IMG/VR virus record: IMGVR_UViG_3300046003_002463
Span: 1 to 23,290 of that record
Source of the DNA: a virus
Reading direction: 5' to 3' (one strand)
Length of the DNA: 23,290 nucleotides
The position numbers and the translations under genes were made by a program. The notes beneath the pieces were generated by a model. It worked only from the letters and a program-made list of their open reading frames with translations. It did not search any database and had not been told where the DNA came from. How positions within the stretch are numbered: the first letter of the stretch is position 1; every line of letters begins with the position of its first letter. Shown piece after piece: positions 1 to 21,692 of the stretch.

Positions 1-917
1 TATGGATTCCCAGAGCATTTAATGCCTATTTTGAATTTGTCTGATTTTATTATATTCTTTGGATTTTTCAAAGGTTTTAAATAAGTACCTTTCCAAAGAT
101 CATCTTCAGTTAAGTCTAAAACTGATGGAATGCTCATTAATGGCACCCATGTGCATCGAGGATCTATAGAATATATATCATTTACTATTTCATAACCGTG
201 CCTGTGGAAAAGTGAATTTGTATCTTTTCTGTATTTTCCTACAGAGTATAAAATTGGTCGCATTCCAAATTTTTTAAGATAATCAAAGAAACGTATATTG
301 ATTATTTCATCTCCAATTCCACCTTCTCCATCAACATATATTGTTTTACCTGGGCTTATAATACCATCCCACTGTGTCATTTTTAGCTTATCAGAAAATA
401 CACCATTACCTTTATATTTTCCAAGAAAGGCATGCATGCCTTTCTTTAATTGCCCTTCACGCAAATATTTTCCGCAAAGCATAACATCTAGATCATATTT
501 TCTTTGTGGAAATTTATCCATTAAATCAAATATAATTTGTTCTGCCTTTTCTTTATCTCCAAGTAAAGAAATATTAGAAGCCTTTTGACATAATGCATCA
601 AAATCTTCAGGTTTAATACTTAAATTGTGTTCTATATAATACAATGCTTTTTCTGGATAGTTCATCATATTATATGCTTTGTATAGATTAATTCTAGTAT
701 TATATATTTGTTCTGGTGTATTTGCAAGTGCATATGTTGCTTCTGCACAATGTAAATATGTATCTCTCTTATCAGATTTTAAAGATACATATCCGAGCGC
801 ATCATAATCAGATATTGTTTTGGCATGAGATAGATAAAAATCAATCAGATCCCATGCCTTTTTTCGTTCATCACAATTTATTAAGTCTATTACGACGGGT
901 TTAAGATATTCTATCAT
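1..917 (-). CDS. TPR protein with GT-B-like glycosyltransferase domain (3' end outside window)
   Basis: Reading the minus strand from the ATG at 917-915 gives 305 codons with no stop before the window edge, so the C-terminus is missing. Residues about 50-160 look like TPR-type helix pairs (AYNMMNYPEKALYYIEHNL, then LLGDKEKAEQII). From about residue 183 comes the signature of TPR-linked GT-B enzymes: WDG, then KTIYVDGEGGIGDEIINIRF (191-210), equivalent to the glycine-rich G-x-GD motif of heptosyltransferase/GT41-like proteins. At the edge, KIGIKCSGNP matches the usual IGLVWSGNP motif, with K-C in place of V-W. The start overlaps the methyltransferase stop by four bases (ATGA), so the two are probably co-translated. 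The family transfers a sugar from a nucleotide-sugar donor; the acceptor is unknown here. Virion fibres or a host glycan are candidates. The catalytic half lies mostly outside the window, so the enzyme class is inferred. Confidence 0.82.
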   Translation of the reverse strand, partial: MIEYLKPVVIDLINCDERKKAWDLIDFYLSHAKTISDYDALGYVSLKSDKRDTYLHCAEATYALANTPEQIYNTRINLYKAYNMMNYPEKALYYIEHNLSIKPEDFDALCQKASNISLLGDKEKAEQIIFDLMDKFPQRKYDLDVMLCGKYLREGQLKKGMHAFLGKYKGNGVFSDKLKMTQWDGIISPGKTIYVDGEGGIGDEIINIRFFDYLKKFGMRPILYSVGKYRKDTNSLFHRHGYEIVNDIYSIDPRCTWVPLMSIPSVLDLTEDDLWKGTYLKPLKNPKNIIKSDKFKIGIKCSGNP

Positions 918-1459
918 TCTTTATTTACAATTAATTTAATCTGAATTTCACTAACAATATTATTATGCTCATTTGCATAATCTTCAATTTCTTGTGCAGA
1001 TAAATTTTGAAGTTTTAATCTTGCATTATCGTCTGGTGTGTATCTATAATCCAAAACTTCAAAATCAACTTCAAAGTATTCACCAAGCCGAGAAGAAGCA
1101 TAACCTTCTTCACGACAGTGTTTATTGAATTTTTGACTGAAAAGCTGTAATCCAACTACAGTAATTGGTCTTCTGTGTGTTGGATCTGCAAGGAATGAAT
1201 CATGTCTAGGGTGTGGAACACGAATATCTAGTATTGCACCGTGTTTACATACACGATATAGTTCTTTAAGGCAATGGAAGTAGCCATCACCAAGATGCTC
1301 TAGAATATGATGAGCAACCACTGTTTCTACCGAATTATCTTCAAGTGGAAACTTATCTTTTTCTAAATTTACGATGTAATCTGGATTTGCATTTTTATCG
1401 TAATCAAATGTAATAAAGCCTTCGAGTTTTGTATCTCCGGCACCAATATTTAGTTTCAT
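914..1459 (-). CDS. Class I SAM-dependent methyltransferase
   Basis: This 181-residue protein is a small Rossmann-type methyltransferase. Motif I is LNIGAGDTKLEGFITFDYD (3-21): the G-x-G loop for the SAM amino-acid part, then an acidic stretch at the end of strand 2. VETVVAHHILEHL (44-56) is the typical motif of predicted methyltransferases in sugar and surface-polysaccharide gene clusters, and a P-H-P-R-H-D...DPTHRRP patch (82-98) is also characteristic of that subgroup. There is no DNA-methylase NPPY or DPPY motif, so DNA methylation is unlikely. The start is supported by a good ribosome site, TGAGGTG (1473-1467), and a late promoter octamer just upstream. It overlaps the TPR glycosyltransferase by four bases. 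Together they look like a sugar- or protein-modifying pair made late in infection. The substrate cannot be read from sequence. Confidence 0.85.
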   Translation of the reverse strand: MKLNIGAGDTKLEGFITFDYDKNANPDYIVNLEKDKFPLEDNSVETVVAHHILEHLGDGYFHCLKELYRVCKHGAILDIRVPHPRHDSFLADPTHRRPITVVGLQLFSQKFNKHCREEGYASSRLGEYFEVDFEVLDYRYTPDDNARLKLQNLSAQEIEDYANEHNNIVSEIQIKLIVNKE

Positions 1460-1490
1460 AATTTTTCACCTCATAGTAATAATATAGATT

Positions 1491-1498
1491 TATTTATA
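1491..1498 (-). promoter_or_regulatory. T4-type late promoter (TATAAATA)
   Basis: The minus strand reads TATAAATA in an AT-rich setting, a perfect match to the T4-family late octamer. It lies in the 43-base gap after the third RCC1 gene, 31 bases upstream of the methyltransferase ATG. It would place the methyltransferase and glycosyltransferase under late control. Position and exact match support it; activity is inferred. Confidence 0.72.
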
Positions 1499-1502
1499 TA
1501 GA

Positions 1503-2990
1503 TTAGCCGCCGCGGATTCCTGCACTATGTGTCGAGGTACCGACTGAAGTTGCGGCACTTATTTGCACCCAATCAGTAAAACCACCAACAACTGATACAG
1601 GTGATGATGTGTTTGTTGTTGCGGTATTATCTCCCAATTCTCCAGCTGTATTAATTCCCCAAGCCCACGCGGTTCCGTTTGCTCTTAAACCTAGACTATG
1701 TGACTGCCCTCCATCCAATTGTACCCAATCGGTAAAACCGCCGACAACTAATACTGGTGATGATTTAGCCACAACAGTATCATCACCTAATTTTCCATCT
1801 TGACCAGAACCCCAGGCATAAGCAATTCCATTTGATTTTAGTCCTAAACTATGATTACTTCCAGCACTTACTTGTGTCCAATCAGTAAAACCACCAACAA
1901 CTGATACTGGGGATGATGTATTTGTTGTTGTACCGTCTCCTAACGAACCAGCTGAATTACCACCCCAAGCCCAAGCAGTTCCGTTTGCTTGGACACCCAA
2001 ACTGTGTACCCCACCGCCACTTACTTGTATCCAATTAGTAAATCCACCTACTACTGATACAGGTGACGAACTATTTGCTGTAGTACCATCACCAATTCTT
2101 CCGAATGAATTATCACCCCAACCCCATGCGGTCCCATTTGCTCTGAGAGCTACAATATGTCTCTGCCCTGAACTTACTTGTGTCCAATTAGTGAAACCAC
2201 CTACAACTGAAACTGGTGATGATTTATCTACTGTAGTACCATCTCCAAGTTCTCCAGCAAAATTATAACCCCATGCCCATAATGTTCCATTTCCTCTTAA
2301 TCCTAAACTGTGTTTAAATCCACCACTAAGTTGGGTCCAATCACTAAAACCGCCGACTACAGATACAGGAGATGATTTAGAAACTGTAGTTCCATCACCT
2401 AGTTGCCCTGTATCATTAAGACCCCAAGCCCAAGCGGTTCCATTTGCTCTTAAAGCAACAGTATGAGAAGATAATGCTTCTACTTGAACCCAATCAACAT
2501 AATCACCGACTACAGATACCGGAGATGATTTAGAAACTGTTGTTGCATCACCCAACTGTCCGTTAGTATTCGTACCCCAAGTCCAAAGATTATTTAAAGG
2601 TTTTGGATTTTGCAATGTTGGAAATAGTAAAACCCAAGTATCATCACTTCTATAAACATATGGTAAATTTTCATTTATAACAAAAACAACTGTACCTGGA
2701 TCTACTTGTAATAAAGTTAAATCTGTTAAATCTGTTACAAAAATTGTTCTATTTTCAGTTATAAGATGAAGAGCTGCTGTTAATGTAGCAATTTCTTCCA
2801 AACTAGTAGCAGTATTAGCAGAATTTAATCTAGATAATAATTCTGTTTTTATTGTTGAAGAATCTACATCACCCAAAGATGCAGTCTTTAGGATTAAAAC
2901 TAATTCACTGGTTGTCTCGGTAGAAAGAGATAATCCACTTATTAATGTACCTAATTCTGTTACAGCATTTGTTTTAACTATTGATACCAT
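1503..2990 (-). CDS. RCC1-repeat seven-bladed propeller adhesin, copy 3
   Basis: This 495-residue protein has a 139-residue N-terminal part followed by seven RCC1-type repeats of about 50 residues. Each repeat follows the pattern W-G-x4-G-x-LGDGT-x4-SSPVSVVGG-F-x-DW-x-Q-S-G-x2-HSLGLRANGTAWAWG. Counting the DW-Q cores gives exactly seven, as expected for a closed seven-bladed beta-propeller. The chain opens at a WTWG strand and ends at HSAGIRGG, so the first strand should complete the last blade. The N-terminal part is longer than in the two sister proteins (89 and 93 residues), seems to hold two similar helical segments, and ends in a short beta module (VVFVINENLPYVYRSDDTWV). The 5-base gap to the DUF4376 gene suggests coupled translation. 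RCC1 folds are known protein-binding platforms. A surface receptor-binding role here is inferred from the fibre-gene setting. Confidence 0.85.
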   Translation of the reverse strand: MVSIVKTNAVTELGTLISGLSLSTETTSELVLILKTASLGDVDSSTIKTELLSRLNSANTATSLEEIATLTAALHLITENRTIFVTDLTDLTLLQVDPGTVVFVINENLPYVYRSDDTWVLLFPTLQNPKPLNNLWTWGTNTNGQLGDATTVSKSSPVSVVGDYVDWVQVEALSSHTVALRANGTAWAWGLNDTGQLGDGTTVSKSSPVSVVGGFSDWTQLSGGFKHSLGLRGNGTLWAWGYNFAGELGDGTTVDKSSPVSVVGGFTNWTQVSSGQRHIVALRANGTAWGWGDNSFGRIGDGTTANSSSPVSVVGGFTNWIQVSGGGVHSLGVQANGTAWAWGGNSAGSLGDGTTTNTSSPVSVVGGFTDWTQVSAGSNHSLGLKSNGIAYAWGSGQDGKLGDDTVVAKSSPVLVVGGFTDWVQLDGGQSHSLGLRANGTAWAWGINTAGELGDNTATTNTSSPVSVVGGFTDWVQISAATSVGTSTHSAGIRGG

Positions 2991-2995
2991 TATAC

Positions 2996-3634
2996 TTAAG
3001 CCAATTTGTTAATAAAATCTAAATTTAAAAGTTCTTCAGTAGTTAAGCAAGAATCAATTTGCTCATTTAATGACTTTTCCCAATTAAATGTATCTTGAAT
3101 ATAATCTGCACATGCTTTAGCTATAATACTTAATTCTTCTTTAGATATAGTTAACCAACCTTCGGAAAATTTCCAATTTATTACTTCACCATCATTCATA
3201 GTTAAAAACTTTTGTATGTATACATTTCTTCTTTCTCGGGAGGTATCAATGGTTATTTCAAGATTTTGTAAAGTCAATTTAGTATTTGAAATTTCTTTTT
3301 TGTATCTTTCAGATGCCAATACCGATCTAAAATTATCTTTTGCAACTTCAATAGAAATATCTTTTACTTCATAATTTGCAATTATAATATCATTAGAAAA
3401 ATCCCAAATTGGGCCATAATAATAATGAATCATAGTATTTAATTCTGGTCTATTTTCGACAACTCTATGAATTTTAGTATCATTGTCAATTACATATGGC
3501 AATATTTCTGGTTCAATGCCAGGTATATTTGCATCTATTTTATGACGAATTTTAAGAGCTGATGTAAAATACTTTTGGGACCAAGCCATTGGTCCTACAA
3601 CTACTCTATTTTTGTGTACTATTCCATATGACAT
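2996..3634 (-). CDS. DUF4376-domain tail-fibre-associated protein
   Basis: The 212-residue protein has two parts. Residues 1-95 begin IVHKNRVVVGPMAWSQKYF and include YYYGPIWDF, a pattern I associate with phage fibre-linked proteins. Residues about 100-195 match DUF4376: a basic SERYKKEI helix, TLQNLEITIDTSRERR, an MNDGEVINWKFSEGWLT core, then a helix leading to the conserved F-N-W-E-K-S-L. DUF4376 is found in tail-fibre and fibre-assembly proteins of many phages; its biochemical role is not established. It lies between RCC1 copies 2 and 3, with an AAGGAT ribosome site ahead of its ATG, so it may help assemble, cap or attach the propeller proteins. That role is inference. The domain assignment is fairly secure. 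Confidence 0.75.
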   Translation of the reverse strand: MSYGIVHKNRVVVGPMAWSQKYFTSALKIRHKIDANIPGIEPEILPYVIDNDTKIHRVVENRPELNTMIHYYYGPIWDFSNDIIIANYEVKDISIEVAKDNFRSVLASERYKKEISNTKLTLQNLEITIDTSRERRNVYIQKFLTMNDGEVINWKFSEGWLTISKEELSIIAKACADYIQDTFNWEKSLNEQIDSCLTTEELLNLDFINKLA

Positions 3635-3651
3635 ATTACTTAATCCTTATA

Positions 3652-4986
3652 TTATAATGTTCTTATACCGACACTAAATGCACCACCAGCATTTAGTTGA
3701 ACCCAATCATTAAAATTGCCAAATCCACCAATGACAGATGCTGGTGATAATCTACTAGTAACAGTACCATCACCTAAGCGGCCACTACCATTTCCACCCC
3801 AGCCCCATGCTGTACCATTTAATCTTAATCCTACACTATGTATATTAGCACTTACTTGAACCCAATCTGTAAAACCACCTACAACTGACACAGGAGATGA
3901 TTTAGAAACAGTCGTTCCATCGCCAAGTCTTCCATATAGATTATAACCCCATGCCCAAGCAGTTCCATTTGCTCTTATACCGAGATTATGACGATCACCT
4001 GCACTTACTTGAACCCAATCAGTGTACCCACCAACTACTGACACTGGAGACGATTTACCTACTGTAGTATTATCACCAAGTCTTCCATTTGTGTTCGCTC
4101 CCCACGCCCACGCAGTTCCATTTTCTCTAATTCCCAAACTATGGTAACCTCCGGCGCTTACTTGTGTCCAATCTGTAAAACCACCTACAACCGATACAGG
4201 GGAAGATTTGGATACTAAAGTGTTATCTCCAAGCTGTCCGTTACCATTATTACCCCAGGACCAGGCAGTTCCGTTTGCTCTTAAACCTACACTATGCGGG
4301 AATGAGGCTGGCCCAGCACTTACTTGAATCCAATCAACATAACCACCGACTACAGATACAGGAGATAATTTAGAAACTATTGTTTCATCACCTAATTGGC
4401 CCCTAGTATTATTACCCCAGGCCCAGGCAGTTCCGTTTGCTCTTAAACCTAGAGAAAATGCATTTCCAGCACTTACTTCTGTCCAATCTGTAAAACCACC
4501 TACAACAGATACAGGTGATGATCTAACTGTAACAGTATTGTCACCTATTCGGCCGTTGCCGTTATATCCCCAACCCCATAAAGTACCATTAGATCTAATT
4601 ACATGATTATGACTAAATCCAGAACTCGAATAAATCCAATCTGTAAAACCACCAACTACTGAAACTGGTGATTGCTTTCCTATACCGGTATTATCGCCTA
4701 ATTGTCCAGATCCATTTTCGCCAAATGAGAATAGACTTGGACTTCCTTCTACTACCTTAAGTCTATTAGGGCCAAAACTATAATATAGAGAATTTTCAGT
4801 TTCTACAAAATACAGATCACCATATGTATAAGAATCATCAAACATATCTGTATATAAAGTTACAGTTTTTACTTTATTTACATTTAATTTTTCTATAATC
4901 TTAGAAAGGAATAGAAATTCTTGTTCTGTTGTAGAATTAGTAATTTTATCTACTATAATTTCAATAATATTTAATATTGCTGTCAT
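3652..4986 (-). CDS. RCC1-repeat seven-bladed propeller adhesin, copy 2
   Basis: This 444-residue protein has an 89-residue N-terminal region (a predicted helix pair, then a short beta module, GDLYFVETENSLYYSFG) and seven RCC1 blades. Blade openings include ENGSGQLGD, YNGNGRIGD, NNTRGQLGD, NNGNGQLGD, ANTNGRLGD, YNLYGRLGD and GNGSGRLGD. These surface turns vary while the GLRANGTAWAWG and SSPVSVVGG strands stay almost constant. The chain ends at AFSVGIRTL, leaving the last blade to be closed by the first FSFG strand. Its ATG overlaps the stop of copy 1 by four bases (ATGA), so the two are translationally coupled and probably made in similar amounts. Some blades share long identical DNA stretches, which points to recent blade duplication or conversion. 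Role as a virion adhesin is inferred from context. Confidence 0.86.
   Translation of the reverse strand: MTAILNIIEIIVDKITNSTTEQEFLFLSKIIEKLNVNKVKTVTLYTDMFDDSYTYGDLYFVETENSLYYSFGPNRLKVVEGSPSLFSFGENGSGQLGDNTGIGKQSPVSVVGGFTDWIYSSSGFSHNHVIRSNGTLWGWGYNGNGRIGDNTVTVRSSPVSVVGGFTDWTEVSAGNAFSLGLRANGTAWAWGNNTRGQLGDETIVSKLSPVSVVGGYVDWIQVSAGPASFPHSVGLRANGTAWSWGNNGNGQLGDNTLVSKSSPVSVVGGFTDWTQVSAGGYHSLGIRENGTAWAWGANTNGRLGDNTTVGKSSPVSVVGGYTDWVQVSAGDRHNLGIRANGTAWAWGYNLYGRLGDGTTVSKSSPVSVVGGFTDWVQVSANIHSVGLRLNGTAWGWGGNGSGRLGDGTVTSRLSPASVIGGFGNFNDWVQLNAGGAFSVGIRTL
4261..4451 (-). repeat. Exact 29-bp direct repeat between RCC1 blades of copy 2
   Basis: Positions 4261-4289 and 4423-4451 are identical over 29 bases and extend to the left with one mismatch. 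They encode the GLRANGTAW strand of adjacent blades in RCC1 copy 2. This is the same pattern of blade-to-blade DNA identity seen in copy 1. Confidence 0.8.
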
Positions 4987-6308
4987 GCTTTAATTCCTAA
5001 CATATGGGCAACATTTGTGCTTATTTGAACCCAATTGAGGGATCCCACTATAGATACTGGAGACAATTTACCTACTGCCGTGTTGTCACCTAAAATAGCA
5101 GCACCCCAAGCCCAAGCAGTTCCATTAGCTCGAAGACCGACACTATTAGAGGTCCCGGCATTTACTTGAACCCAATCTGTAAAACCACCAACTACAGATA
5201 CTGGTGATGTTCTAGATGAAACCGTACCATCACCTAATTGACCGTTAGTATTATAACCCCATGCCCAAGCAGTTCCATTAGCTCGAAGACCGACACTATG
5301 CCCGCTGCTCAAGCCGCCCGCACTTACTTGAATCCAATCCGTAAAACCACCTACCACTGAAACTGGAGACAATTTAGAAACTATTGTTCCATCACCAAGT
5401 CTGCCATTTGTGCTCGGCCCCCATGCCCAAGCAGTTCCATTTGCTCTTAAGCCAAGACTATGTGTGGCACCAGCACTTACTTGAATCCAATCTGTAAAGC
5501 CACCTACCACCAAAACTGGAGACGATTTGGATACTGTGGTATTGTCCCCCAAAATACCACTTGCACCAGAACCCCAAGCCCATGCGGTTCCATTTGCTCT
5601 TACACCGAGACTATGAATGGCGCCAGCACTTACTTGCACCCAATCTATAAAACCACCTGCAACCGATACAGGAGCCGATTTTGCTACTGCAGTGTTGTCA
5701 CCAAGTCTTCCGTTTGTACCAGCGCCCCATGCCCACGCAGTCCCATTTGCTCTTAAGCCAAGACTATGTGTGGCACCTGCACTTACTTGAACCCAATCAG
5801 TGTACCCACCTGCAACCGATACAGGAGATGATTTAGAAACAGTTGTTCCATCACCTAGTTTTCCCGAGGTGGCGGCACCCCACGCCCATGCAGTCCCATT
5901 TGCACGAATACCAAAACTATGTTGAGAGCCAGCATTTAGTTGAACCCAATCTGTAAAACCACCTATTACAGAAACAGGTGATGATTTAGCAACAGTAGTA
6001 CCATCGCCAAGTCTACCATAGACAGCGGTGCCCCATGCATATCCATTGGCATCTGGAAATCTAAGTATATTATTAATGTCCCAAGTAATACCATTGCTAT
6101 ATACATATTTACTTTCAGAAGTGATGTATACAAATCTACCTTTATTATTGGCAGCAGGCGGTAAATTTAAAGTTGCAGTAACAACTCCTATACCACTTTT
6201 TTCTATTGATTCTATTGCACCAAAAACTTGTGCTAATTCAAGACTAGTCAATCCACCAGTTGCTATAGCAGAATTTAATTTTGTAATGAGACTATTTACA
6301 GGTATCAT
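4983..6308 (-). CDS. RCC1-repeat seven-bladed propeller adhesin, copy 1
   Basis: The 441-residue protein has a 93-residue N-terminal segment: a helical part (LITKLNSAIATGGLTSLELA) and a beta module (GRFVYITSESKYVYSNGITW). Seven RCC1 blades follow. The last is shortened (AAILGDNT) and ends at AHMLGIKA, with the first YAWG strand free to close the ring. Blade 5 carries a small loop insertion (GGLSSGHS). The gene begins one base after the stop of the short fibre gene, with AGGA upstream, and overlaps copy 2 at its end. Eukaryotic RCC1 is a chromatin-bound exchange factor; none of its context is present here, so a host-surface-binding propeller on the virion is the better reading. No signal peptide or membrane segment is visible. 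Confidence 0.86.
   Translation of the reverse strand: MIPVNSLITKLNSAIATGGLTSLELAQVFGAIESIEKSGIGVVTATLNLPPAANNKGRFVYITSESKYVYSNGITWDINNILRFPDANGYAWGTAVYGRLGDGTTVAKSSPVSVIGGFTDWVQLNAGSQHSFGIRANGTAWAWGAATSGKLGDGTTVSKSSPVSVAGGYTDWVQVSAGATHSLGLRANGTAWAWGAGTNGRLGDNTAVAKSAPVSVAGGFIDWVQVSAGAIHSLGVRANGTAWAWGSGASGILGDNTTVSKSSPVLVVGGFTDWIQVSAGATHSLGLRANGTAWAWGPSTNGRLGDGTIVSKLSPVSVVGGFTDWIQVSAGGLSSGHSVGLRANGTAWAWGYNTNGQLGDGTVSSRTSPVSVVGGFTDWVQVNAGTSNSVGLRANGTAWAWGAAILGDNTAVGKLSPVSIVGSLNWVQISTNVAHMLGIKA
5111..5299 (-). repeat. Exact 36-bp direct repeat between adjacent RCC1 blades
   Basis: The stretches 5111-5146 and 5264-5299 are identical over 36 bases. They encode the same strand (LRANGTAWAWG and its lead-in) of neighbouring blades in RCC1 copy 1. 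Other blades encode the same residues with different codons, so the identity points to recent blade duplication or conversion rather than protein-level constraint alone. Confidence 0.85.
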
Positions 6309-6309
6309 A

Positions 6310-6564
6310 TTATAATCCTAAAAATGCTATTGTTCTTGCAAATTCATCAGTACCTGCTCCGCCACCGCCGCCAATGGAACCCCAACCAGCATTACTATAA
6401 CCTTCAAACGAATTTGTTGTAGTATTGTAGCGCAACTGACCTAGAACACCAGTTGGTTGCTGACCAGTTGTTCCCGCAGGAACTTTGACTGCTGTAGTTC
6501 CAGCTAAATCTATGTAAGCAGTTTGATCATTGATGATCGTAGTGCCTTGAATCTTGATTGCCAT
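6310..6564 (-). CDS. Short tail-fibre protein
   Basis: This 84-residue protein starts MAIKIQGTTIINDQ, followed by AVKVPAGTTGQQPTGVLGQL, RYNTTTNSFEGYSNAGWGSI, a glycine run, and a final EFARTIAFLGL. The pattern (an I-x-G-T-T-x-I start, a VPAGTT-x-Q-x-P stretch, then RYNT-x-FEGY-x-G-W) recurs in small fibre or spike proteins of marine T4-like phages. It is a beta-rich module usually found in longer fibres, here standing alone. The start is fixed by a strong GAAAGGGG ribosome site (6579-6572) and a late promoter 37 bases upstream of the ATG. It is first in the transcription unit carrying the RCC1 genes, with a one-base gap to copy 1. It may be the attachment stub or cap of that fibre, which is inference. 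Confidence 0.75.
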   Translation of the reverse strand: MAIKIQGTTIINDQTAYIDLAGTTAVKVPAGTTGQQPTGVLGQLRYNTTTNSFEGYSNAGWGSIGGGGGAGTDEFARTIAFLGL

Positions 6565-6600
6565 CTTCGCGCCCCTTTCATGAGTACTCGGCTATACAAG

Positions 6601-6608
6601 TATTTATA
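6601..6608 (-). promoter_or_regulatory. T4-type late promoter (TATAAATA)
   Basis: A perfect late octamer on the minus strand sits immediately after the stop codon of the 146-residue chaperone gene and 37 bases upstream of the short fibre ATG. It would start a unit of short fibre, RCC1, RCC1, DUF4376 and RCC1. Support comes from the exact match and from its position in a gene gap. Confidence 0.72.
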
Positions 6609-7049
6609 TTACTGAGGCGGTGTCGGCCATACAATATTGTCTGGGAAACCAGCTTGTGATGTCACATCTCTTAATTCTTGACGATATAGTGACCAAGCTT
6701 CTTTATTGATCGAAGCAGGTGCATCTGGAAGTTGTGTATAGTCACAAAGAAGAAGCAGTTGATTACGGATTGCTCTCATTTGTCCTGAGCGCTCTTCCAA
6801 TGTAGGTTCATCAGAATAATCAATTGCACCGAATGCAGCTGCAACATCTATAGTTTGAACTACTGCATCTTTTTCTATCCAATATGCAACAGGTGAATAT
6901 TGGACTATTACAGCTTCTAAAGTTTCACCTTCATATGGAATTCTTGTATATACATTCATATCACCATGAGTTGGTGATGTATATTTAACTTCCATAGTTC
7001 TTCCATTTGTATCAACATTTAATACTTTATATGTATATTTGATTTGCAT
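6609..7049 (-). CDS. Tail assembly chaperone-domain (Phage_tail_APC) protein
   Basis: The 146-residue protein has a beta-rich N-terminal half (residues 1-75) and a C-terminal domain of the phage tail assembly chaperone type (Phage_tail_APC). The domain runs from RAIRNQLLLLCDYTQLPDA (92-110), through EAWSLYRQELRDVTSQAGFP, to an end at WPTPP. The sequence N-Q-L-L...D-x-TQLPD...W..YRQ.LRD...Q.GFP...WP..P is diagnostic. Such proteins sit next to fibre genes in many tailed phages and are thought to act in fibre or tail assembly. Here it directly follows the glycine-rich adhesin gene with a 12-base spacer and an AGGAAA ribosome site. It is the last gene before the next late promoter, so it closes the collagen-fibre transcription unit. 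Its exact partner is not visible; the neighbouring fibre or adhesin is likely. Confidence 0.8.
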   Translation of the reverse strand: MQIKYTYKVLNVDTNGRTMEVKYTSPTHGDMNVYTRIPYEGETLEAVIVQYSPVAYWIEKDAVVQTIDVAAAFGAIDYSDEPTLEERSGQMRAIRNQLLLLCDYTQLPDAPASINKEAWSLYRQELRDVTSQAGFPDNIVWPTPPQ

Positions 7050-7061
7050 GTTGTTTTCCTA

Positions 7062-8102
7062 TTAAACTGTTTCTGTCCCGCCTGCTACAGTTCCTAATGT
7101 AGAAAAAGTAACATAATTTGACCCTTTAACTGCAAGACCTGCAGCTCCACCAGCGCCGCCTGCAGATCCATTAACAATAGTCGCGGAACCAAATGCCCCG
7201 CCTGCAGAATTTCCACTTGTTCCGGCACTGCCCAAAGCCCCACCGCTACCACCATTTGGTGGATTTGACCAGATCAACCCGCCGCTACCACCGGATCCAT
7301 CATTAAATGCATAGTTACCACCATCACCACCACTTCCTCCTGCTGTGGCAGTGCCACTAGAACCATTTGTCGGATATGTTATTGCAGGAATAATAGGAGA
7401 TTGCCATGTTGTTGTGCCGCGAGTACCTCCAGTACCTCCAGTGCCGCCTGCACCACCTCCACCGCCAGGACCCCCGGCCCATAACTTTTTAGCATTTGCA
7501 GTCATAACAGCATATACACCAGCACTGCCGCCGCCGCCGCCGCCACCACCAGCTATAGTACCATTATTAATAACAGTCACCGCAGTGCTAGCATATAATG
7601 CAGCACCTCCAGAACCTCCAGCAGTACCTCGTAATGATGTTGAATTTGTTGCTGGAGAACCACCACCATTTCCACCAGGACCGCCTTTTCCTGCTATAGT
7701 ACCGTTATTAACAATACGAATACCTTTAGGAAATGAGCCAGAAACTGTAAGGGCATAAAAACCTGCACCTGAACTGGTTGTTGATACCGTAATACCCGAA
7801 TCTATTGTTAATACAACTCTTTTAGCTTGATCCCATCCAAGTCCTATTAAATATGTTCTAACATTAACATCATTTGCATTAGTAGAAATTGATGCTCTAA
7901 ATGGTGCATCTTTTCCGTGTCCATCCGAAAATGATATTTGTGATAAATTTGCATATGGTGCTGCCGCAAGATTTGGCGTATCTCCTGCCAGCATATCCCG
8001 AACAATATTTTCATTCATAGTCAGAGTTGTCGTGTCAGTTCTTGCCAACTCGACATTCATTTGATTTGTTGATATTCCGTTAGGAAATAGTGGAAGGGTC
8101 AT
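7062..8102 (-). CDS. Glycine-rich tail-fibre tip adhesin (gp38-like)
   Basis: This 346-residue protein has an N-terminal domain (1-125) with VRTYLIGLGWDQAKRVVLTI and a GFYALTVSG strand. It is followed by IRIVNNGTIAGKGGPGGNGG (128-147) and then long glycine-rich segments to about residue 320, including a second VINNGTIAGGGGGGGG (177-192). Alternating VNNGTI strands and glycine runs resemble the polyglycine-II sandwich of T2/S16-type gp38 adhesins, whose loops between glycine helices contact the receptor. Here the inter-glycine loops (for example MTANAKKLW, QSPIIPAITYPTN, YAFNDGS, LIWSNPPN) would be the binding tips. It follows the collagen fibre gene, as gp38 follows gp37, with GGAAGGGAAA as ribosome site. 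Overall sequence match to gp38 is not proven; a generic glycine-rich virion protein remains possible. Confidence 0.68.
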   Translation of the reverse strand: MTLPLFPNGISTNQMNVELARTDTTTLTMNENIVRDMLAGDTPNLAAAPYANLSQISFSDGHGKDAPFRASISTNANDVNVRTYLIGLGWDQAKRVVLTIDSGITVSTTSSGAGFYALTVSGSFPKGIRIVNNGTIAGKGGPGGNGGGSPATNSTSLRGTAGGSGGAALYASTAVTVINNGTIAGGGGGGGGSAGVYAVMTANAKKLWAGGPGGGGGAGGTGGTGGTRGTTTWQSPIIPAITYPTNGSSGTATAGGSGGDGGNYAFNDGSGGSGGLIWSNPPNGGSGGALGSAGTSGNSAGGAFGSATIVNGSAGGAGGAAGLAVKGSNYVTFSTLGTVAGGTETV

Positions 8103-8105
8103 TAC

Positions 8106-11100
8106 TTATTTCCCTTCCAGACTTTCAATTTTTACAGATAGTTCTTTAATTGCTTCAATTAGAAGTGGAACTATTTTTTCATATCTTACAGTCAGATATC
8201 TTTCATCAATTGGAGCTGGAGCAACAATTTCTGGTAAAATTTCTTTCACTTTCTGAGCAGAAATACCGACTTCTCTTATTGGTTTGTAACCCATTCTCTG
8301 AGCAATTTCATTTGCTTCATAATAGAAACCATCAAGTGTTTTAACTTTTTCAAGTGCATTTTCAATTAACCCAAGTCTAGTTTTAAGTCTATCATCGGAA
8401 TAATAAGCAGTAATATTATTAGTTGCTCTAATTTCACCTGCAGTTCCAGATGCGGTAGTTCCTACCCCAAGACTGTTAAATCGTACGTTACTCGAAGTAT
8501 TTACTGTTTGGTCGGCAGTAACACCTGTAGTACCTTGAATACCTTGGATACCAAAGATCCCTTGAATACCTTGTGACCCAACTCCTGTTATACCTTGCAG
8601 ACCTAAAGTACCCTGAATACCTTGGCGACCTTGAATACCTTGGATACCTTGGATACCCTGTGAACCGTTAGCACCAACACCTGAAAGACCTTGACCACCA
8701 ATAGTTCCTTGTACACCTTGGCGACCTTGTAGACCTTGGAGACCTTGGTTGAAACTTACACCTGAAAGACCTTGAATACCTTGACCACCAATAGTTCCTT
8801 GGACACCTTGGCGACCTTGTAGACCTTGGTTACCAATAACACCTCCGCCGCCCTGAACACCCTGAATACCTTGGAGACCTTGATTAAAGCTTTGACCAGA
8901 AGTACCTTGAAGTCCTTGGAAACCTTGAGCAACCGCATTACCAGATTGTCCTTGAACACCTTGTAAGCCTTGGTTGAAACTTTGCCCTGAAGTACCTTGA
9001 AGTCCCTGGAAACCTTGGGCTACAGCAGATCCAGACTGTCCTTGTATACCTTGATAACCTTGTGCAACAGCAGAGCCTGAAGTACCTTGAAGTCCCTGGA
9101 AACCTTGAGCAACAGCAGATCCAGATTGGCCTTGGACACCTTGGCGACCTTGAATACCTTGTCCTGCAAACAAACCATCGGTACCTTGAAGTCCCTGGAA
9201 ACCTTGTAATACTGCGGAACCAGATTGCCCTTGAACACCTTGAACACCTTGGTTAAAACTTTGACCCGATATTCCCTGGAAACCTTGACGGCCTTGTGTA
9301 CCCTGAACACCTTGTAGGCCTTGATTGAAACTTTGACCGGATATACCTTGAACACCCTGGATACCTTGAGCGGCAAATGACCCAGGAACACCCTGTATAC
9401 CTTGTCGACCTTGAAGCCCCTGTAGGCCTTGGCCCACAAGACCTTGTATACCTTGGACACCTTGTCTACCTTGAGACCCAGTTGAACCTTGAATTCCTTG
9501 GACACCTTGTAGACCTTGAGTACCTTGAGGTCCCTGAATACCTTGTATGCCTTGACCAACAAGTCCCTGAATGCCTTGAACACCTTGGCGCCCCTGAATA
9601 CCTTGAGCTCCAACGAATTGACCTACTTCAGACCAATTTACACCATCATAAACCCATAATTTACCGGTACTGGTTTCAATTACAGCATTACCTGAAACTG
9701 CACTTGGAAACGCAATTTTAAGTGCCGCATCACTTGCTACACTAATACTTCCAATAACAGTAAGCGCAGGTCCGAATGTACCTTGAACACCTTGAAGTCC
9801 CTGAATACCTTGGCCAACAAGACCTTGTAAACCTTGAACACCCTGAGTTCCTTGAGTTCCTTGGACACCTTGAGCGCCTCTTAGACCTTGAACACCTATT
9901 GGCCCTATAATACCTTGACGGCCTTGAATACCTTGATTACCAAATAGACCTTGAATACCTTGGACACCTTGAGAACCTACTGCTCCGACAAATCCTGAAA
10001 TACCTTGAATACCTTGATTACCAAGAATGCCTTGAATACCTTGAACACCCTGAGAGCCTTGGATACCTTGTTGACCGATTTGACCTTGAACACCTTGAGT
10101 TCCTTGCGGGCCCTGAGTTCCTTGCACACCTTGTTGACCTTGAGGTCCTTGTAAACCTTGAATACCCTGTCCTACTTGACCTTGTATACCTTGAGTACCT
10201 TGAGTACCTTGAATACCTTGGCTTCCAATAATACCTTGAGCGCCTTGAATACCTTGCGGCCCCTGGATGCCTTGATTACCTTGAATACCTTGGCTTCCAA
10301 TAATACCTTGAGTGCCTTGAATACCTTGAGTGCCTTGAATACCTTGAGCGCCAATAGATCCTTGTATACCCTGAATACCTTGAGATCCTTGAATACCCTG
10401 TGGTCCCTGAATACCTTGAATACCAATAGAACCTTGAATACCCTGAATACCTTGAATACCAAATAGACCTTGAATACCTTGGTTACCCTGAATACCTTGG
10501 TTACCTTGAATACCAAATAGACCTTGAATACCTTGTCGGCCTTGAGTTCCTTGAATACCCTGTGGTCCCTGAATACCTTGAGTTCCTATCAAACCTTGTA
10601 TACCTTGGACACCCTGTTCACCCTGAGTGCCTTGAATACCTTGGAAACCAATAGAGCCTTGAATACCTTGGGAACCAATAGAACCTTGAATACCCTGAGT
10701 ACCCTGTGTCCCTTGGATACCTTGTGGACCCTGAATACCTTGAATGCCAATAGAACCTTGAATACCCTGAGGTCCTTGGATACCTTGTGGTCCCTGGATA
10801 CCTTGAGTTCCTTGAGTTCCTTGCGGCCCCTGGATACCTTGATTACCTTGAATACCTTGGCTTCCAATAATACCTTGAATTCCTGATCCTGTTATACCCT
10901 GTGTACCTTGGGCGCCTTGTGGACCTTGAATTTGTCCAACATTGTTCCAATTAACACCATCATAAACCCAGAGATTGCCAGATGCTTGATCTATCACACC
11001 ATTGCCCGCAACTGCAGTGTTAAATGCAGTATTTAAAACATCTTGTTCATCATCTGGGGGTGTGTAATTTGAAACATCAAGAACAGATCCGATAATTGTT

Positions 11101-16157: not shown

Positions 16158-16335
16158 TATTCTTCTCTATTCTATCTTCTAAGAGTTTATATAAATTTTC
16201 TACTTGAGAATAAAGATGATCTATTTCTTTCTGCATAGAAGTCATCTTTCGTACTTTATCTCTTTCCATTTTGTATTTATAAAGGGCATCCGCATCGGTA
16301 TTAATTAATGCCTTTGTTCTTTCGTCTCTAATCAT
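16135..16335 (-). CDS. Small coiled-coil protein
   Basis: The 66-residue protein is charged and helical throughout: ERTKALINTDADALYKYKME, then MQKEIDHLYSQVENLYKLLE with leucine, isoleucine and valine spaced as heptads. It has no signal peptide or membrane segment. The RDERTKALINTDADALYKYK start resembles small conserved proteins between baseplate and fibre genes in T4-like phages, whose function I cannot name. It overlaps the DUF4815 gene by four bases (ATGA) and the S74 fibre gene by 23 bases, so it is likely to be translated with both. A role as a trimeric bundle or adaptor joining fibre to baseplate would fit its coiled coil, but that is inference. The double overlap and plausible codon use argue it is real. 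Confidence 0.75.
   Translation of the reverse strand: MIRDERTKALINTDADALYKYKMERDKVRKMTSMQKEIDHLYSQVENLYKLLEDRIEKNNGKIRNN
16274..16281 (-). promoter_or_regulatory. Possible late promoter inside the 66-residue gene
   Basis: The minus strand reads TATAAATA within codons for L-Y-K-Y, about 117 bases upstream of the S74 fibre ATG. The exact octamer makes it a candidate late promoter for that fibre, but it could be a coding coincidence in AT-rich DNA. Confidence 0.4.
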
Positions 16336-19300
16336 GTAAGTGCAATCCCCCTATAATCGAGAAGTCTTGGTATTGAACCGATTGGTAATCTTCCGGATAC
16401 CTCATCAACTATAAATTCTATCTTTACAGCAAATTTTCTATAACCAGAATATTCACCGGAAGTATTGGAATATGTTAATACACCGCCGACCTTTTCAGTT
16501 TCTGGTAATTTATATACAAACTCTTTAAAATCATTAGTATTACTTGTTGATGAATAAACTTCAGCACCTTCAACTAATTCTAATGGTATCCAATCATTTA
16601 GTTCAAATGCAACTGGATCAGAAGCATGTTGAACTTTGACATAAACATTAATACTTGTATTTAAGGGTCTGTATGCTGTAGTGTAGAGAATAAAATCTTC
16701 TGCATCTAGATTTTCAGCCAATTCAATTGTCCGTGAAATATATGCAGAAGTGTTATCTGTATTAGCACCAACTTTATATTGATATGCTAACATAGTAGCA
16801 GTTTCGACATCTACAAATGGTGATGCGGTAGTATTATTTCCATTAGTAAGAGTTAATGTTATGTCAAACGGTTTAACACCATTTGATTTACTGAAAATAA
16901 TACAGCCTTTTTCGTTAAATGTTGTCTTATTATTAAATGGAATATTTCTTGTATATGTCACATCAGTATCTGAAGGATCTGTGAATGTACCAGTCATTGT
17001 AACATCAGTAACACTGTTATTTGTTTTTAATATGATTGGTTGCATGTAACTCAATTCAACATTATCAACTGTTGAAATTGTTGCCGATGCTTCAGTTACA
17101 AATCCTACAATAGTATCACCAGGAGATAATACCTTAGTTAGACTTGCTGATGAACCTTCGAGTATCATAAGTTCAGGATTTCTATTGGTATAGTAAACAA
17201 TTTTACCTATTACAGCAGGATTTGCAATAAATGATCCGGTAAATTTAGAAGGTTTATCAAATATCATAGCTCCCGACGTAGGAGCTTCTACGATCTTCAT
17301 TAAATCTTTATTTGCGCCACTTTCAACATATACATAGTCATATTGATTGTATGTAGTTGAAAGTGCTGTCCCTGTAGAAGTAGTATTTCCAGCAGAAAGA
17401 GATATCGTATTTGATGTTCCACCGCCGACAGATTTGAGTACGTATACGAGTTCTCCATTTTGGAAGTCACCAGTAATATTTGAAAGAGTCAAGAACTCGT
17501 TATCTTCATTTGTAAGAGTTACAGTTCCAGTTGATTGACTGAATTCTCTTCTATAAAGTGTAAACTTGATGTCTTCATCTTGGTATGACTGCCATGCTCT
17601 ATTATTTGTAGAAGTGAATAGAACACCGTCACCCCAGTCCATAACTACAGGAGAATCTGTAATTAGATCAGTTAGACCCACCTTTGAAGTATATATTAGA
17701 TAATCAGGATCACCTGCATCAGGCATAATAACAATTGCATATTCTTTTTCAACATCAAGTCTTACAGGTGCTTTGAAGAATACAGATGTTGCAGTCAAAC
17801 CATTATCTGAAATTGCAACATCACTTGCATTTAAGTGCACTTTAGAGAAAGGTATTATTTCCGCAGCTGGATAGCCATTAATGACTTCTCTTAGCATGAC
17901 TGTGACACCGTTGGTAACACTTTTTCTCTTGAAGAACAAGTCAACACGTGAAGCAAAGATACAATCTGCTCCGTTTGCCATTGCAGATTTTATAAAGAAT
18001 GTTTGTGCTAGTGGATCAGAGTTTCCTGTAGTTACTGCTACAGGTCTATTTACTACAGTTCTAGTTGTTGAAGTTTCTGAAACTCTTATTTCAGGTTCAC
18101 GTGTCGTGAGAGTTAGACTTTGCTTATTTACAGAGAAATTATATGCTCTATAAGTAATTGAACCACCAGATGTTCCTGCAGATGATACAGAATCTATATT
18201 ATCAACATCAGATACCAATAGAACTCTATCGCCGACATAGAATGCTGCAGATGGTATTGTGAATATTGCTGCAAGACTACCATTAGAATTTGTAATGACA
18301 CTTGCAACTGTAGTCCCTTTTGCAACTACATCACGAACAGAATCTGATGAAGGAACTAAGCCAGGGATAACACTTGAATTCACATCAATATCATCAAAGA
18401 AGAAATAATGACGTGTATTTGGTCTTAAACCGTGCATCAAGATTTTAACTTCTCTTGATCTCATAAATGGATTGAAGTTGAAGTTTGTAACAAATTCACC
18501 TAGATTTTGCTCATTAACACGACCTTCGGAAACTTGAAGGGAACGAGTTATATCTTGAATAATATCAGTTTGCTGTGTGCTAACGGTAGTACTTCGACCT
18601 TTACCTTTGCCTGAAGTTGTTCTTCCAATTTCTTCTATACGTGATTCTAGCAAAGTTGATTGAGTTGAAGTTAATGGTACAAATTCCTGTAGTGCTTCAG
18701 TATATTCAATAAATGGTGTTGCAATGTCAATGTTTATATTTGGAGATGGTGCTGTTACAGTATCATATGCACCATCATATTCTGGAAATAAGAAACCAGT
18801 TCCAATATAGTCATAGAAATTACTTACACAATTTCTAAAGCTTGTTGCATAAGGTTGTGTAATTAACGGTGTGTTAATTGATGTTGCAAGAGTTGCAGCA
18901 TCTATTTCTGCACTACTTGGGTGTAATGAAACATTCGAGGATGTTTTATATTTTAGATTAATAGGTATTGTTTTAACAGCAGGTAAAAGTGATTTTTCTG
19001 TAAAATCTAGTGATGCATTAAATTCTGGATTCTTAACATCTGCTATTGATAAATCATTGAATGGATCTACGAGAATACCATTTTTAAATCTAGTAATACC
19101 AGCTTCATCTGTGATATTTAGATTTTGTGTAGATGCTTCCAATAATGATACGGACATATAGTAGAAAAGTTTACTGATTTTACTGTCAAGATCTCCGATT
19201 TCTTTCATCGTATATGTTTTCGCGCCCAAAGTCTTGGATTTTATTGCCAATGCTGGTTTATTTTCCTGTGATGCTCTATCAGAAGATATGGCAGGAAACC

Positions 19301-21692
19301 CGGGTACGTAAATTTCTGAAATGACTAATTTATCGTCACCGATAGTAGGTGACCGAGATTTTCTTGAAGGTTTACCTTTTGTTGCAGAAAATTTACCATA
19401 CGAATCTATTGTTATAATATCAGTTCTATTAAGATAATATTCGTAATCAAGTGTTGCCGCAGAATTAAGCGCTGGTATTAAGAAAGTACCAGTAAACGTA
19501 GGATTTGCACCTACGGCTGTGCTTACAGTAGGAGCTGTTCCCAGTACTTCGGCACTTGCATATGCTACAGTATTTGCTGCATGTGGTCTAAAGTCTACAC
19601 AATCTCTTAGATTTAATGTTGTGCCAGATGATGTTTTATATGAAGGAATATAACTTAGATCTATTGTATTTGGATAACTATCAACTGTAAAGAAATATGA
19701 TCCTGTTGCAGTACTTACTTTGAATGCTTTTACTCTAATGGTCATAAGACCATTGGCAGGAACTGGGCGACCAGGTATATATTCAATGTATGAAAGATCA
19801 TAGTAATGATCTTGCTGATTTTCTATTAATCTAAAACTATTAGTAACATCATTACTTCCAGAATCTGTTATGCTTACTAATTGATACACATCTGGGAAAC
19901 CAAGACTATATTTTGTTGTTCCAGCAGAGAATGTTGCTTTGACATAAAGTGTTGTATCTAATTTGTCGTATGGTTCTGCAAGTTGTACTCTGGAATTGTA
20001 GTAAATAGTCCCTGTAGCAGCTGGTGTTTGGCCTGCCACTAAATTAATAGTCAATTGAGTTGAACTATCTTTTACAATACTGGATATCTGAAGATTATCT
20101 TGTGTTGTATCTACAATAAGGGTATCATCGAGTTGAACATTAAAATCTTCACCCGAGAGTGAAGTCAAAGTAAACGTGTCTGCAATATTAGTTAATGCTC
20201 TTGCTTTTCTTACGGGAATACTGATATCTGTTACACTTTTAAGAAATGTTTCACCGACATTAAAAATTGAAGTGTCATTACTTTTCTGTTTTATAGTAGG
20301 AATAATTTTTACAGAACCTGCAGCTCCATCAATAGAAGCTACATCACTAAAATTATTTGCACCCATTCTGATGTTTGAAACATATACTCTATCTGGGGTA
20401 AAGTTTCTTACTCTTACAGTACCAATTGTAGTATTACTAATATTTTTTAGAGAAGCGGTTGCGTATGTTCCAACTGGAAGTGTTCCCATTGAATCTGTAT
20501 TTGCAATATCAACATATGATCCGTAATTGAAAGATACAGGTTGATTTGCTTGTGTCTCAGTATCAGAAAGTTCCAATTGGTCAATAGGAACAAAGATCTC
20601 GCCCTTAGTTTCTATTCTATAGCCTTTGACATATGCTACACCTGGTTCCACTGCTGCCTGTATAGCTCCATTTGCGGTGTTGATAACTTTTGTTTTAAAG
20701 CCGCGCACAATATAATTGCCAGATTCTTCGAATGTACGACGAGCCATTTCCTCACCAAGTACATTATACTGAGAAACGTCTCTAACCTGAACAGCACTTC
20801 CGTTAATATAACGGGCAAGTGTAAAGAATGTAGGATCTCCATCTGCTTCCACGGTTGAAATTGCAATAAGTACAGGTTCTAATTTTAATCTGTTTGCACC
20901 AGGGGCATTAAAATTAGGTGTACCAATCGAATTATCATAGAGTGTATTATCGGTCAGAGGGCTAATTAAGCTTTCCCTTACTCTATAACCAACTGAAATG
21001 TTATTTGGTACATTTGTGTACTTTGTTAGTATTACAATTTGTTCTTTGGCATATAAGAAGTGACCTTTTTGATATGTAATACCTATAGCAGATTGTACAC
21101 CAAATGATTTTCCAACATGATTTGCTCTTGATGTCACTGAAAATTCTGCTACTTTTACACCGACACTTGTTACATCATCAGTTATTGTATATCTATAAAT
21201 TTCTAAAGTTTCATTCTGATCAAAAACTTTTTCTTGTGCTTCGTTTGAATTTAGATAATTAATAAAGAATGTATTTAAATCGGGATCATTAGTTTCAAAA
21301 CCAAATGCCGCAGCTATAATCAATGCTTTCAGCCCAGTTATAGCACCTTCAATTTCATAAAATGTTTCAATTCCAGTTTCTGGATCAATCCCACCAACAA
21401 GTTCATTTACTGTTATTTCTAACAGGGGATTTATGATATTGACCGCAGTATCTGTTACTTTTACATAACTTAATGCTGATAATTCAGTAAAGTTACACCC
21501 TTTAATAATACTACCTTCTTTAAAGATATTATCACCAAATTGTTCTACTTGATTTTGTAGAATTGTTTGAAGCTGAGTCAGTTCTCTTGCTTGAACTGCA
21601 TAACCAGGTCTGAATAAAACTCTATGGTACTGTTTAGTAATATCGTAATCATCATAGTATGGAGACTCATTTAGATTAGTGCGAATTGGCAT
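16332..21692 (-). CDS. Very large DUF4815-domain baseplate/fibre-network protein
   Basis: This 1786-residue protein starts with the hallmark of DUF4815: YYDDYDITKQYHRVLF, RPGYAVQARELTQLQTILQN and EQFGDNIFKEGSII in the first 65 residues. The family-typical pattern continues through IVRGFKTKVINTANGAIQAA, VEPGVAYVKGYRIETKG (about 355) and LRDCVDFRPHA. Near residue 1030 a flexible TTSGKGKGRSTT loop precedes NPFMRSREVKILMHGLRPNT and HYFFFDD, then DPLAQTFFI (about 1230). The C-terminus (YRKFAVKIEFIVDE, IPRLLDYRGIALT) matches the usual end of this family. It lies where T4 carries gp9/gp10, directly after gp8 with a nine-base gap and AAGGA ribosome site. In marine T4-like phages such proteins are virion structural components, probably joining baseplate wedges to fibres. 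That role is inferred from order; the domain call is firm. No enzymatic motif is visible. Confidence 0.88.
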   Translation of the reverse strand: MPIRTNLNESPYYDDYDITKQYHRVLFRPGYAVQARELTQLQTILQNQVEQFGDNIFKEGSIIKGCNFTELSALSYVKVTDTAVNIINPLLEITVNELVGGIDPETGIETFYEIEGAITGLKALIIAAAFGFETNDPDLNTFFINYLNSNEAQEKVFDQNETLEIYRYTITDDVTSVGVKVAEFSVTSRANHVGKSFGVQSAIGITYQKGHFLYAKEQIVILTKYTNVPNNISVGYRVRESLISPLTDNTLYDNSIGTPNFNAPGANRLKLEPVLIAISTVEADGDPTFFTLARYINGSAVQVRDVSQYNVLGEEMARRTFEESGNYIVRGFKTKVINTANGAIQAAVEPGVAYVKGYRIETKGEIFVPIDQLELSDTETQANQPVSFNYGSYVDIANTDSMGTLPVGTYATASLKNISNTTIGTVRVRNFTPDRVYVSNIRMGANNFSDVASIDGAAGSVKIIPTIKQKSNDTSIFNVGETFLKSVTDISIPVRKARALTNIADTFTLTSLSGEDFNVQLDDTLIVDTTQDNLQISSIVKDSSTQLTINLVAGQTPAATGTIYYNSRVQLAEPYDKLDTTLYVKATFSAGTTKYSLGFPDVYQLVSITDSGSNDVTNSFRLIENQQDHYYDLSYIEYIPGRPVPANGLMTIRVKAFKVSTATGSYFFTVDSYPNTIDLSYIPSYKTSSGTTLNLRDCVDFRPHAANTVAYASAEVLGTAPTVSTAVGANPTFTGTFLIPALNSAATLDYEYYLNRTDIITIDSYGKFSATKGKPSRKSRSPTIGDDKLVISEIYVPGFPAISSDRASQENKPALAIKSKTLGAKTYTMKEIGDLDSKISKLFYYMSVSLLEASTQNLNITDEAGITRFKNGILVDPFNDLSIADVKNPEFNASLDFTEKSLLPAVKTIPINLKYKTSSNVSLHPSSAEIDAATLATSINTPLITQPYATSFRNCVSNFYDYIGTGFLFPEYDGAYDTVTAPSPNINIDIATPFIEYTEALQEFVPLTSTQSTLLESRIEEIGRTTSGKGKGRSTTVSTQQTDIIQDITRSLQVSEGRVNEQNLGEFVTNFNFNPFMRSREVKILMHGLRPNTRHYFFFDDIDVNSSVIPGLVPSSDSVRDVVAKGTTVASVITNSNGSLAAIFTIPSAAFYVGDRVLLVSDVDNIDSVSSAGTSGGSITYRAYNFSVNKQSLTLTTREPEIRVSETSTTRTVVNRPVAVTTGNSDPLAQTFFIKSAMANGADCIFASRVDLFFKRKSVTNGVTVMLREVINGYPAAEIIPFSKVHLNASDVAISDNGLTATSVFFKAPVRLDVEKEYAIVIMPDAGDPDYLIYTSKVGLTDLITDSPVVMDWGDGVLFTSTNNRAWQSYQDEDIKFTLYRREFSQSTGTVTLTNEDNEFLTLSNITGDFQNGELVYVLKSVGGGTSNTISLSAGNTTSTGTALSTTYNQYDYVYVESGANKDLMKIVEAPTSGAMIFDKPSKFTGSFIANPAVIGKIVYYTNRNPELMILEGSSASLTKVLSPGDTIVGFVTEASATISTVDNVELSYMQPIILKTNNSVTDVTMTGTFTDPSDTDVTYTRNIPFNNKTTFNEKGCIIFSKSNGVKPFDITLTLTNGNNTTASPFVDVETATMLAYQYKVGANTDNTSAYISRTIELAENLDAEDFILYTTAYRPLNTSINVYVKVQHASDPVAFELNDWIPLELVEGAEVYSSTSNTNDFKEFVYKLPETEKVGGVLTYSNTSGEYSGYRKFAVKIEFIVDEVSGRLPIGSIPRLLDYRGIALT

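Follow-up and report, generated by a model that had tools for sequence, protein, structure and literature searches.

A TPR-glycosyltransferase paired with RCC1-repeat proteins points to a probable fibre-protein glycosylation system in a T4-like phage

Why should a phage carry a methyltransferase (MT) and a TPR-glycosyltransferase (TPR-GT) directly behind its fibre genes? The question is raised by a virus record of 23,290 bases from a T4-like environmental phage, which was analysed over its whole length (the window) and whose main genes lie on the minus strand. Along the direction of transcription, the end of a structural gene is followed by a VrlC homologue and by fibre genes including a collagen-like protein, then by three RCC1-repeat proteins with a DUF4376 'tail fiber' protein between them, by the MT, and finally by the start of the TPR-GT. 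The relevant features are the following.

3..917, minus strand: TPR-GT, N-terminal 305 of 444 residues; an ORF that runs on past window base 1
914..1459, minus strand: class I SAM-dependent methyltransferase (MT), 181 aa; Pfam and PHROG matches
1491..1498, minus strand: T4-type late promoter octamer TATAAATA; exact match, 31 nt upstream of MT
1503..2990, minus strand: RCC1-propeller fibre protein 1, putative acceptor; Pfam RCC1-like domain, E 4.4e-66, 7 repeats
2996..3634, minus strand: DUF4376 / phage tail-fibre protein; PF14301, E 8.4e-7; phrog_10508 'tail fiber protein', E 1.9e-14
3652..4986, minus strand: RCC1-propeller fibre protein 2, putative acceptor; Pfam RCC1-like domain, E 1.6e-59, 7 repeats
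4983..6308, minus strand: RCC1-propeller fibre protein 3, putative acceptor; repeat HMM, 7 repeats, E 1.3e-141
16332..21692, minus strand: VrlC homologue; Sinorhizobium phage phiM7 VrlC is 33.7% identical over 100%

Judged by its sequence, the VrlC homologue is the start marker of the host recognition cluster of the T4 superfamily, and the gene order is that of such a cluster, i.e. VrlC lies in the window and is followed by fibres and glycosyltransferases, before the neck genes. In a relative (L054) a T4-type terminase is found a few kb past the cassette. The DUF4376 protein often adjoins RCC1 genes. The collagen-like fibre protein (window 8106-12170, 1354 aa) contains many GIQG/GLQG repeats, and its C-terminus resembles an S74-type chaperone domain.

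A preliminary description, made from the window alone, had recognised a methyltransferase with a perfect late octamer upstream and an overlapping TPR-GT gene, and both the ORFs and the exact octamer match bear this out. The MT matches Methyltransf_11 of Pfam (PF08241, E 6.8e-6) and the methyltransferase family phrog_6636 (E 1.6e-14). Its ORF shares ATGA with that of the TPR-GT, which starts at 917, and its ATG is preceded by a GAGGTG ribosome site. What had been described as Ser/Thr/Asn-rich adhesins are indeed the three RCC1 proteins, each with seven repeats and thus forming one seven-bladed propeller. The pair had also been placed at the end of the fibre region, and here the description has to be corrected: a sugar cassette runs on for about 5 kb and is followed by virion genes.

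This continuation is seen in two further IMG/VR contigs (L008 and L011), whose DNA is 100% identical to window 1-8917 and which continue the same phage. The truncated TPR-GT of 305 residues matches no GT model of Pfam, PHROG or NCBIfam, so the assignment as a glycosyltransferase needed sequence past the window. The preliminary description had proposed to look there for a GT catalytic domain and further sugar genes, and L008 contains both; the full TPR-GT of 444 aa is completed in L008:8001-9335.

Sequence searches of the PDB were uninformative (the single protein matched nothing, and its profile essentially TPR proteins), hence a comparison of folds was needed. The AF2 model of the TPR-GT, built on an alignment of 31 relatives (pLDDT 93.4, pTM 0.90), consists of TPR-like helices (residues 2-165) and a GT-B domain (190-440). 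Nearly all significant matches listed by Foldseek against the PDB are SPINDLY and bacterial or animal OGT, i.e. protein glycosyltransferases (E 6e-7, prob 1.00), and a GT9 enzyme structure appears at rank 50. The whole-chain TM-scores are low (0.2-0.4), which speaks for a shared architecture with SPINDLY and OGT and against close kinship.

It is conspicuous that G200, G202, D203, R313, S369, C370 and H375 do not vary among 31 diverse TPR-GTs, that position 296 (Lys in our phage) is always Lys or Arg, and that the motifs GxGD and SCT..H are conserved. By analogy with GT9 enzymes, we take D203 and K296 to be residues of the would-be catalytic site. These invariant GT-B motifs bear on the suggestion that the protein acts chiefly as a chaperone in the folding or assembly of RCC1 propellers, its TPR part being active and its GT part vestigial. 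Such a chaperone would account equally well for a TPR domain that binds protein and for obligate pairing with a single class of protein, but not for the invariance of the motifs, nor for the short-type members (348 aa), in which the N-terminal part is reduced and the GT domain retained. The co-occurrence of MT, sulfotransferase and sugar-supply genes and a natural fusion of GT and MT, both described below, also argue against it, and we regard the chaperone function as improbable.

The pairing itself was examined in 167 TPR-GT loci collected from two IMG/VR scans, one bacterial genome scan and three isolate or single-cell virus genomes. The IMG/VR scans were queried with TPR-GT alignments, and RCC1 was part of no query. 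An RCC1-repeat gene lies at most 3.1 kb away in 156 of these loci, at a median distance of 59 bp. Ten of the eleven remaining loci have the TPR-GT at, or no more than 0.7 kb from, the contig end; in the eleventh (L162) the 3 kb upstream are free of RCC1, and the contig is cut on the downstream side. When the TPR-GTs are clustered at 60% identity, 25 of the 26 clusters are linked to RCC1, the 26th being cut at a contig end. The RCC1 gene is usually upstream on the same strand (145 loci), sometimes downstream on the same strand (7 loci; L169 and L185 have RCC1 downstream) and occasionally on the opposite strand (4 loci). In other words, the two genes stay together although strand and order change. 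In L093/L094 the MT and the TPR-GT are convergent with an RCC1-RCC1-DUF4376-RCC1 series on the opposite strand.

Few phage isolates have RCC1 repeats at all (18 of 50,697 records at E 1e-10), and all isolate or single-cell viruses with a close TPR-GT, i.e. S-SRM01, BUCT-ZZ01 and AG-345-E08, are among the 18. RCC1 fibres without a TPR-GT are present in other phages, so glycosylation is unnecessary for the fold. As a control, 80 phage loci around HldE-type nucleotidyltransferases (HldE-C; L249-L328) were inspected; RCC1 was present in 28 of the 80, an overall rate that is if anything biased upwards, as the query had been built from cassette members. Within this set RCC1 accompanies 23 of the 24 loci with a TPR-GT and 5 of the 56 without one (Fisher p 3e-14); the 24th locus is cut at the contig end, and RCC1 is visible in another locus on its contig (L024). 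An HldD-like gene was seen in 67 and a kinase in 62 of the 80 HldE-C loci, and to judge from these sequences phages commonly have heptose blocks of several enzymes, with or without RCC1.

These counts leave little room for the view that MT and GT act on phage DNA or on some other non-fibre target and lie behind the fibre genes by accident, in a hotspot for gene cassettes. Metabolic genes are known to accumulate in the host recognition cluster, which is hypervariable (PMC7029224), and this would fit such an accident. We nevertheless consider it very improbable, since the linkage to RCC1 holds across diverse viral contigs and in bacteria as well, and since another phage sugar-gene family, HldE-C, does not share it. 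DNA glucosylation was likewise judged unlikely, the linkage being to RCC1 proteins. In the open-licence PMC literature, a coverage that does not establish absence, we found no report of an RCC1 fibre paired with a dedicated TPR-GT. Distant TibC-like and TPR proteins with no annotated RCC1 nearby occur in two Manatee Spring podoviruses and were placed at the edge of the family; a match to the MT in S-CRM01 lies among replication-region genes and was set aside as outside the RCC1/TPR-GT module.

In BUCT-ZZ01, a Synechococcus phage whose host is S. elongatus PCC 7942, TPR-GT and MT are joined in a single protein of 574 aa, whose gene directly follows an RCC1 gene and precedes VrlC. In Synechococcus phage S-SRM01 and in the marine virus AG-345-E08 the TPR-GT has RCC1 genes, 2OG oxygenases and a sulfotransferase around it. 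The module is also found in Bdellovibrionaceae, with the order RCC1-TPR-GT-MT in L160 and RCC1-TPR-GT in L161. In L159 the TPR-GT is followed by a 770-aa RCC1 protein (L159:5821-8133) with a Tat-like SRRDFLK leader, and the downstream flank looks cellular. The Bdellovibrionaceae pairs may be ordinary cellular genes or prophage remnants, and the leader makes it possible that the L159 protein is a folded, exported glyco-adhesin of a predatory bacterium.

The cassette beyond the window edge may hint at the sugar. After the TPR-GT, L008 encodes a sulfotransferase (PF13469, E 1.3e-13), a GT2-type glycosyltransferase and a 180-aa protein, then a cytidylyltransferase-like protein, a PfkB kinase, a cupin and an epimerase, and then more virion genes. 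The top NCBIfam matches are HldE domain I for the kinase (TIGR02198, 5e-39), HldE domain II for the cytidylyltransferase-like protein (TIGR02199, 1e-32) and HldD for the epimerase (TIGR02197, 1.8e-61; PDB 1eq2, 6e-42), with bit scores below the curated equivalog cut-offs in each case (134 vs 345, 113 vs 181.5 and 208 vs 274.6, respectively). The HldE-like kinase is short. The HldE-like nucleotidyltransferase ends in NNESTT and is without the GRSTT motif, which marks enzymes with broad NTP use (PMC11573728); its absence would make ADP-heptose the likelier product. A search for GmhA in 15 contigs, all of them fragments, gave a SIS-domain match in one, far from the cassette, and the host may supply this step.

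The 180-aa protein (L008:10874-11416) has no Pfam match; its model (pLDDT 90.8) has its best PDB folds among 2-oxoglutarate/Fe(II) oxygenases, with modest TM-scores; NO66 and MINA53, which hydroxylate proteins, are among them. This oxygenase-like protein is conserved in relatives (e.g. L045:12221-13144 and L054:9083-10066) and has an extra C-terminal domain in several phages. Two further genes of related cassettes were noted: a fusion of APS-kinase-like and nucleotidyltransferase-like domains in a sulfotransferase-bearing cassette (L054:10068-10916), which might supply a sulfate donor, and an Mrp/MinD-like P-loop ATPase within a sugar cassette (L045:11452-12234).

As GT2, FkbM and other genes in the cassettes are typical of surface-polysaccharide loci, the enzymes could instead alter the glycan recognised by the RCC1 fibre on the host surface (LPS or capsule), so that infected cells and debris would stop binding progeny or competitors. 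The LPS-type sugar genes (HldE, HldD, GT2, FkbM) agree with this, and a fibre could also be co-inherited with a receptor-modifying enzyme. The same kind of role has been published for the host recognition cluster of pelagimyophages and cyanomyophages: these glycosyltransferases occupy the same genome location after VrlC, together with rfaE, and are read as host O-chain modifiers in the available portion of PMC7029224, in which an RCC1 pairing is not described. Against this role, the viral loci contain no visible membrane machinery. At least two TM-like segments were found in 6 of 1230 ORFs around the TPR-GTs, the clearly polytopic ones being in bacterial contigs, and by this measure no flippase, polymerase or lipid-linked machinery (such as a lipid-carrier transferase) is seen near the genes in viruses, which argues for a soluble acceptor. 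Moreover, the closest solved folds are those of protein glycosyltransferases, the RCC1/TPR-GT pairs of Bdellovibrionaceae would be left unexplained, and phage heptose loci without a TPR-GT are mostly without RCC1. We therefore hold modification of the host surface to be unlikely, though clearly less so than the two alternatives discussed above.

The timing of expression bears on the same choice. The window contains seven exact octamers, every one of them on the coding strand, a count that is weak alone (3.4 +/- 1.7 expected; 4 of 100 shuffles reach 7); three of the seven lie 20-36 nt upstream of start codons (1459, 6564, 14790). From the octamer the preliminary description had deduced late expression of the MT. 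The octamer is real in the present phage and rare in the same place among relatives: 3 of 40 distinct regions upstream of the MT contain it, and it was rejected as a conserved feature. In the same 40 regions a sigma-70-like promoter (at least 10 of 12 matches) was found 15 times against 1.7 expected, whereas upstream of the RCC1 genes such promoters are not enriched (4 vs 4.2). Perfect TTGACA-17-TATAAT promoters occur immediately 5' of the MT gene in L044, L076 and L088. By these sequence patterns the enzyme operon often has an early-type promoter of its own, and the enzymes may precede the fibres in production. Lateness is thus not conserved and cannot carry the argument for fibre decoration. 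Early-type promoters 5' of the MT in relatives fit a host-surface role as well, and this is the main reason why we call decoration of the fibres likely and go no further.

We also looked for an acceptor residue in the RCC1 repeats. None stands out, Ser/Thr positions being similar in GT-linked and unlinked repeats. Trp is present at repeat column 29 in 97% of the linked and 63% of the unlinked repeats, the unlinked set being small, phylogenetically mixed and inclusive of truncated copies of the present phage, and no acceptor signal is claimed from it. Each RCC1 protein of the window has 5-6 N-G-T sequons, in most repeats; in relatives these are mostly D-G-T, and for want of such conservation HMW1C-like N-glycosylation is unsupported.

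Among known systems FlmG of Caulobacter comes nearest in design. It joins TPR and GT-B, and it binds flagellin by its TPR part and glycosylates it in the cytoplasm (PMC7591256). The TPR-GT likewise combines TPR and GT-B in one soluble protein according to the AF2 model, with the N-terminal TPR as putative substrate selector and the GT-B domain C-terminal; gene pairing gives it an appendage partner, the putative acceptor RCC1 being, like flagellin, a subunit of a self-assembling surface appendage, and a dedicated sugar-supply pathway is present in both. As acceptor an RCC1 propeller would take the place of flagellin, and a heptose-type supply that of pseudaminic acid; the TPR-GT occurs mainly in phages, and its likeness to FlmG was judged by architecture. 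OGT and SPINDLY (GT41), which gave the best Foldseek matches, also have TPR followed by GT-B, but the TPR-GT is about 10% identical to them and its TPR domain is shorter. The full-length protein matches neither the GT41 signature nor the GT9 signature PF01075 of Pfam.

TibC and AAH, the bacterial autotransporter heptosyltransferases, are similar to the putative phage system in that a dedicated GT heptosylates a repetitive adhesin (PMC4358343). The phage protein has TPR in place of their N-terminal beta-barrel and, with two Cys in its C-terminal half, is without the four-cysteine iron finger; membership in the TibC/BAHT family was rejected for these reasons. A distant relative of the TPR-GT in phage isolates is annotated 'glycosyltransferase tibC'. 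By analogy, the TPR-GT would probably work like the FlmG and OGT systems, even though the GT41 and GT9/TibC signatures fail. Viral enzymes are known to glycosylate virion proteins in chloroviruses, where the GT-GT-methyltransferase protein A064R of PBCV-1 serves capsid glycosylation (PMC7019647) and joins GT and methyltransferase as BUCT-ZZ01 does, and in mycobacteriophages, whose virion glycans were described by Freeman et al. 2023 as cited in PMC11256854. In these cases, whose GTs were compared by description, the acceptors are capsid proteins, with no RCC1 partner reported.

Taken together, the near-universal pairing, the OGT/SPINDLY-like fold, the fusion of GT and MT and the bacterial RCC1/TPR-GT pairs support decoration of the fibres. 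Virion fibre decoration, which might mask or tune binding, had been proposed in the preliminary description, and gene pairing sharpens it to an RCC1 partner, while the part of the proposal that relied on lateness was only partly right. The enzymes beside the three RCC1 fibre genes probably attach, and then methylate, sugars on the fibres, and we think it likely that the pair opens a cassette for the glycosylation of fibre proteins, in which a TPR-guided cytosolic GT decorates RCC1 fibre tips. The TPR domain of the soluble TPR-GT would bind newly made RCC1-propeller proteins in the host cytosol, and its C-terminal GT-B domain would add the first sugar before fibre assembly. Methylation by the MT would fall on the glycan, the protein being the less likely target. 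The glycan would be extended or capped by the sulfotransferase and the second GT encoded downstream, with the HldE/HldD-like enzymes supplying nucleotide-heptose in the present phage. The decorated propeller would be the fibre tip that meets the host. We infer the RCC1 protein acceptor, the order of the steps, the heptose donor and the biological role.

Glycosylation of tail fibres after translation is hardly known in phages, whose sugar genes are usually read as modifiers of the host surface or of DNA. The pairing points to a purpose-built protein-glycosylation system of viruses, and a GT tied to one fibre family would be a direct exception to the usual reading. The viral nucleotide-heptose enzymes, which are known and active and whose purpose has been described as open (PMC11573728), might find a role here as well. 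At the same time, the pairing suggests a function for the RCC1-repeat phage proteins, which annotations place under chromosome condensation and which have been discussed as DNA-condensing (PMC7247149). More tentatively, RCC1 fibre and TPR-GT, with or without MT, might be a portable glyco-adhesin module that several phage lineages have in common with predatory bacteria, and in which variable sugar genes retune the glycan of the fibre tip. If so, the seven-bladed propeller would be a glycoprotein, heptose, methyl and sulfate genes would change binding or recognition, and phages would have a second layer of host-range variation besides protein sequence.
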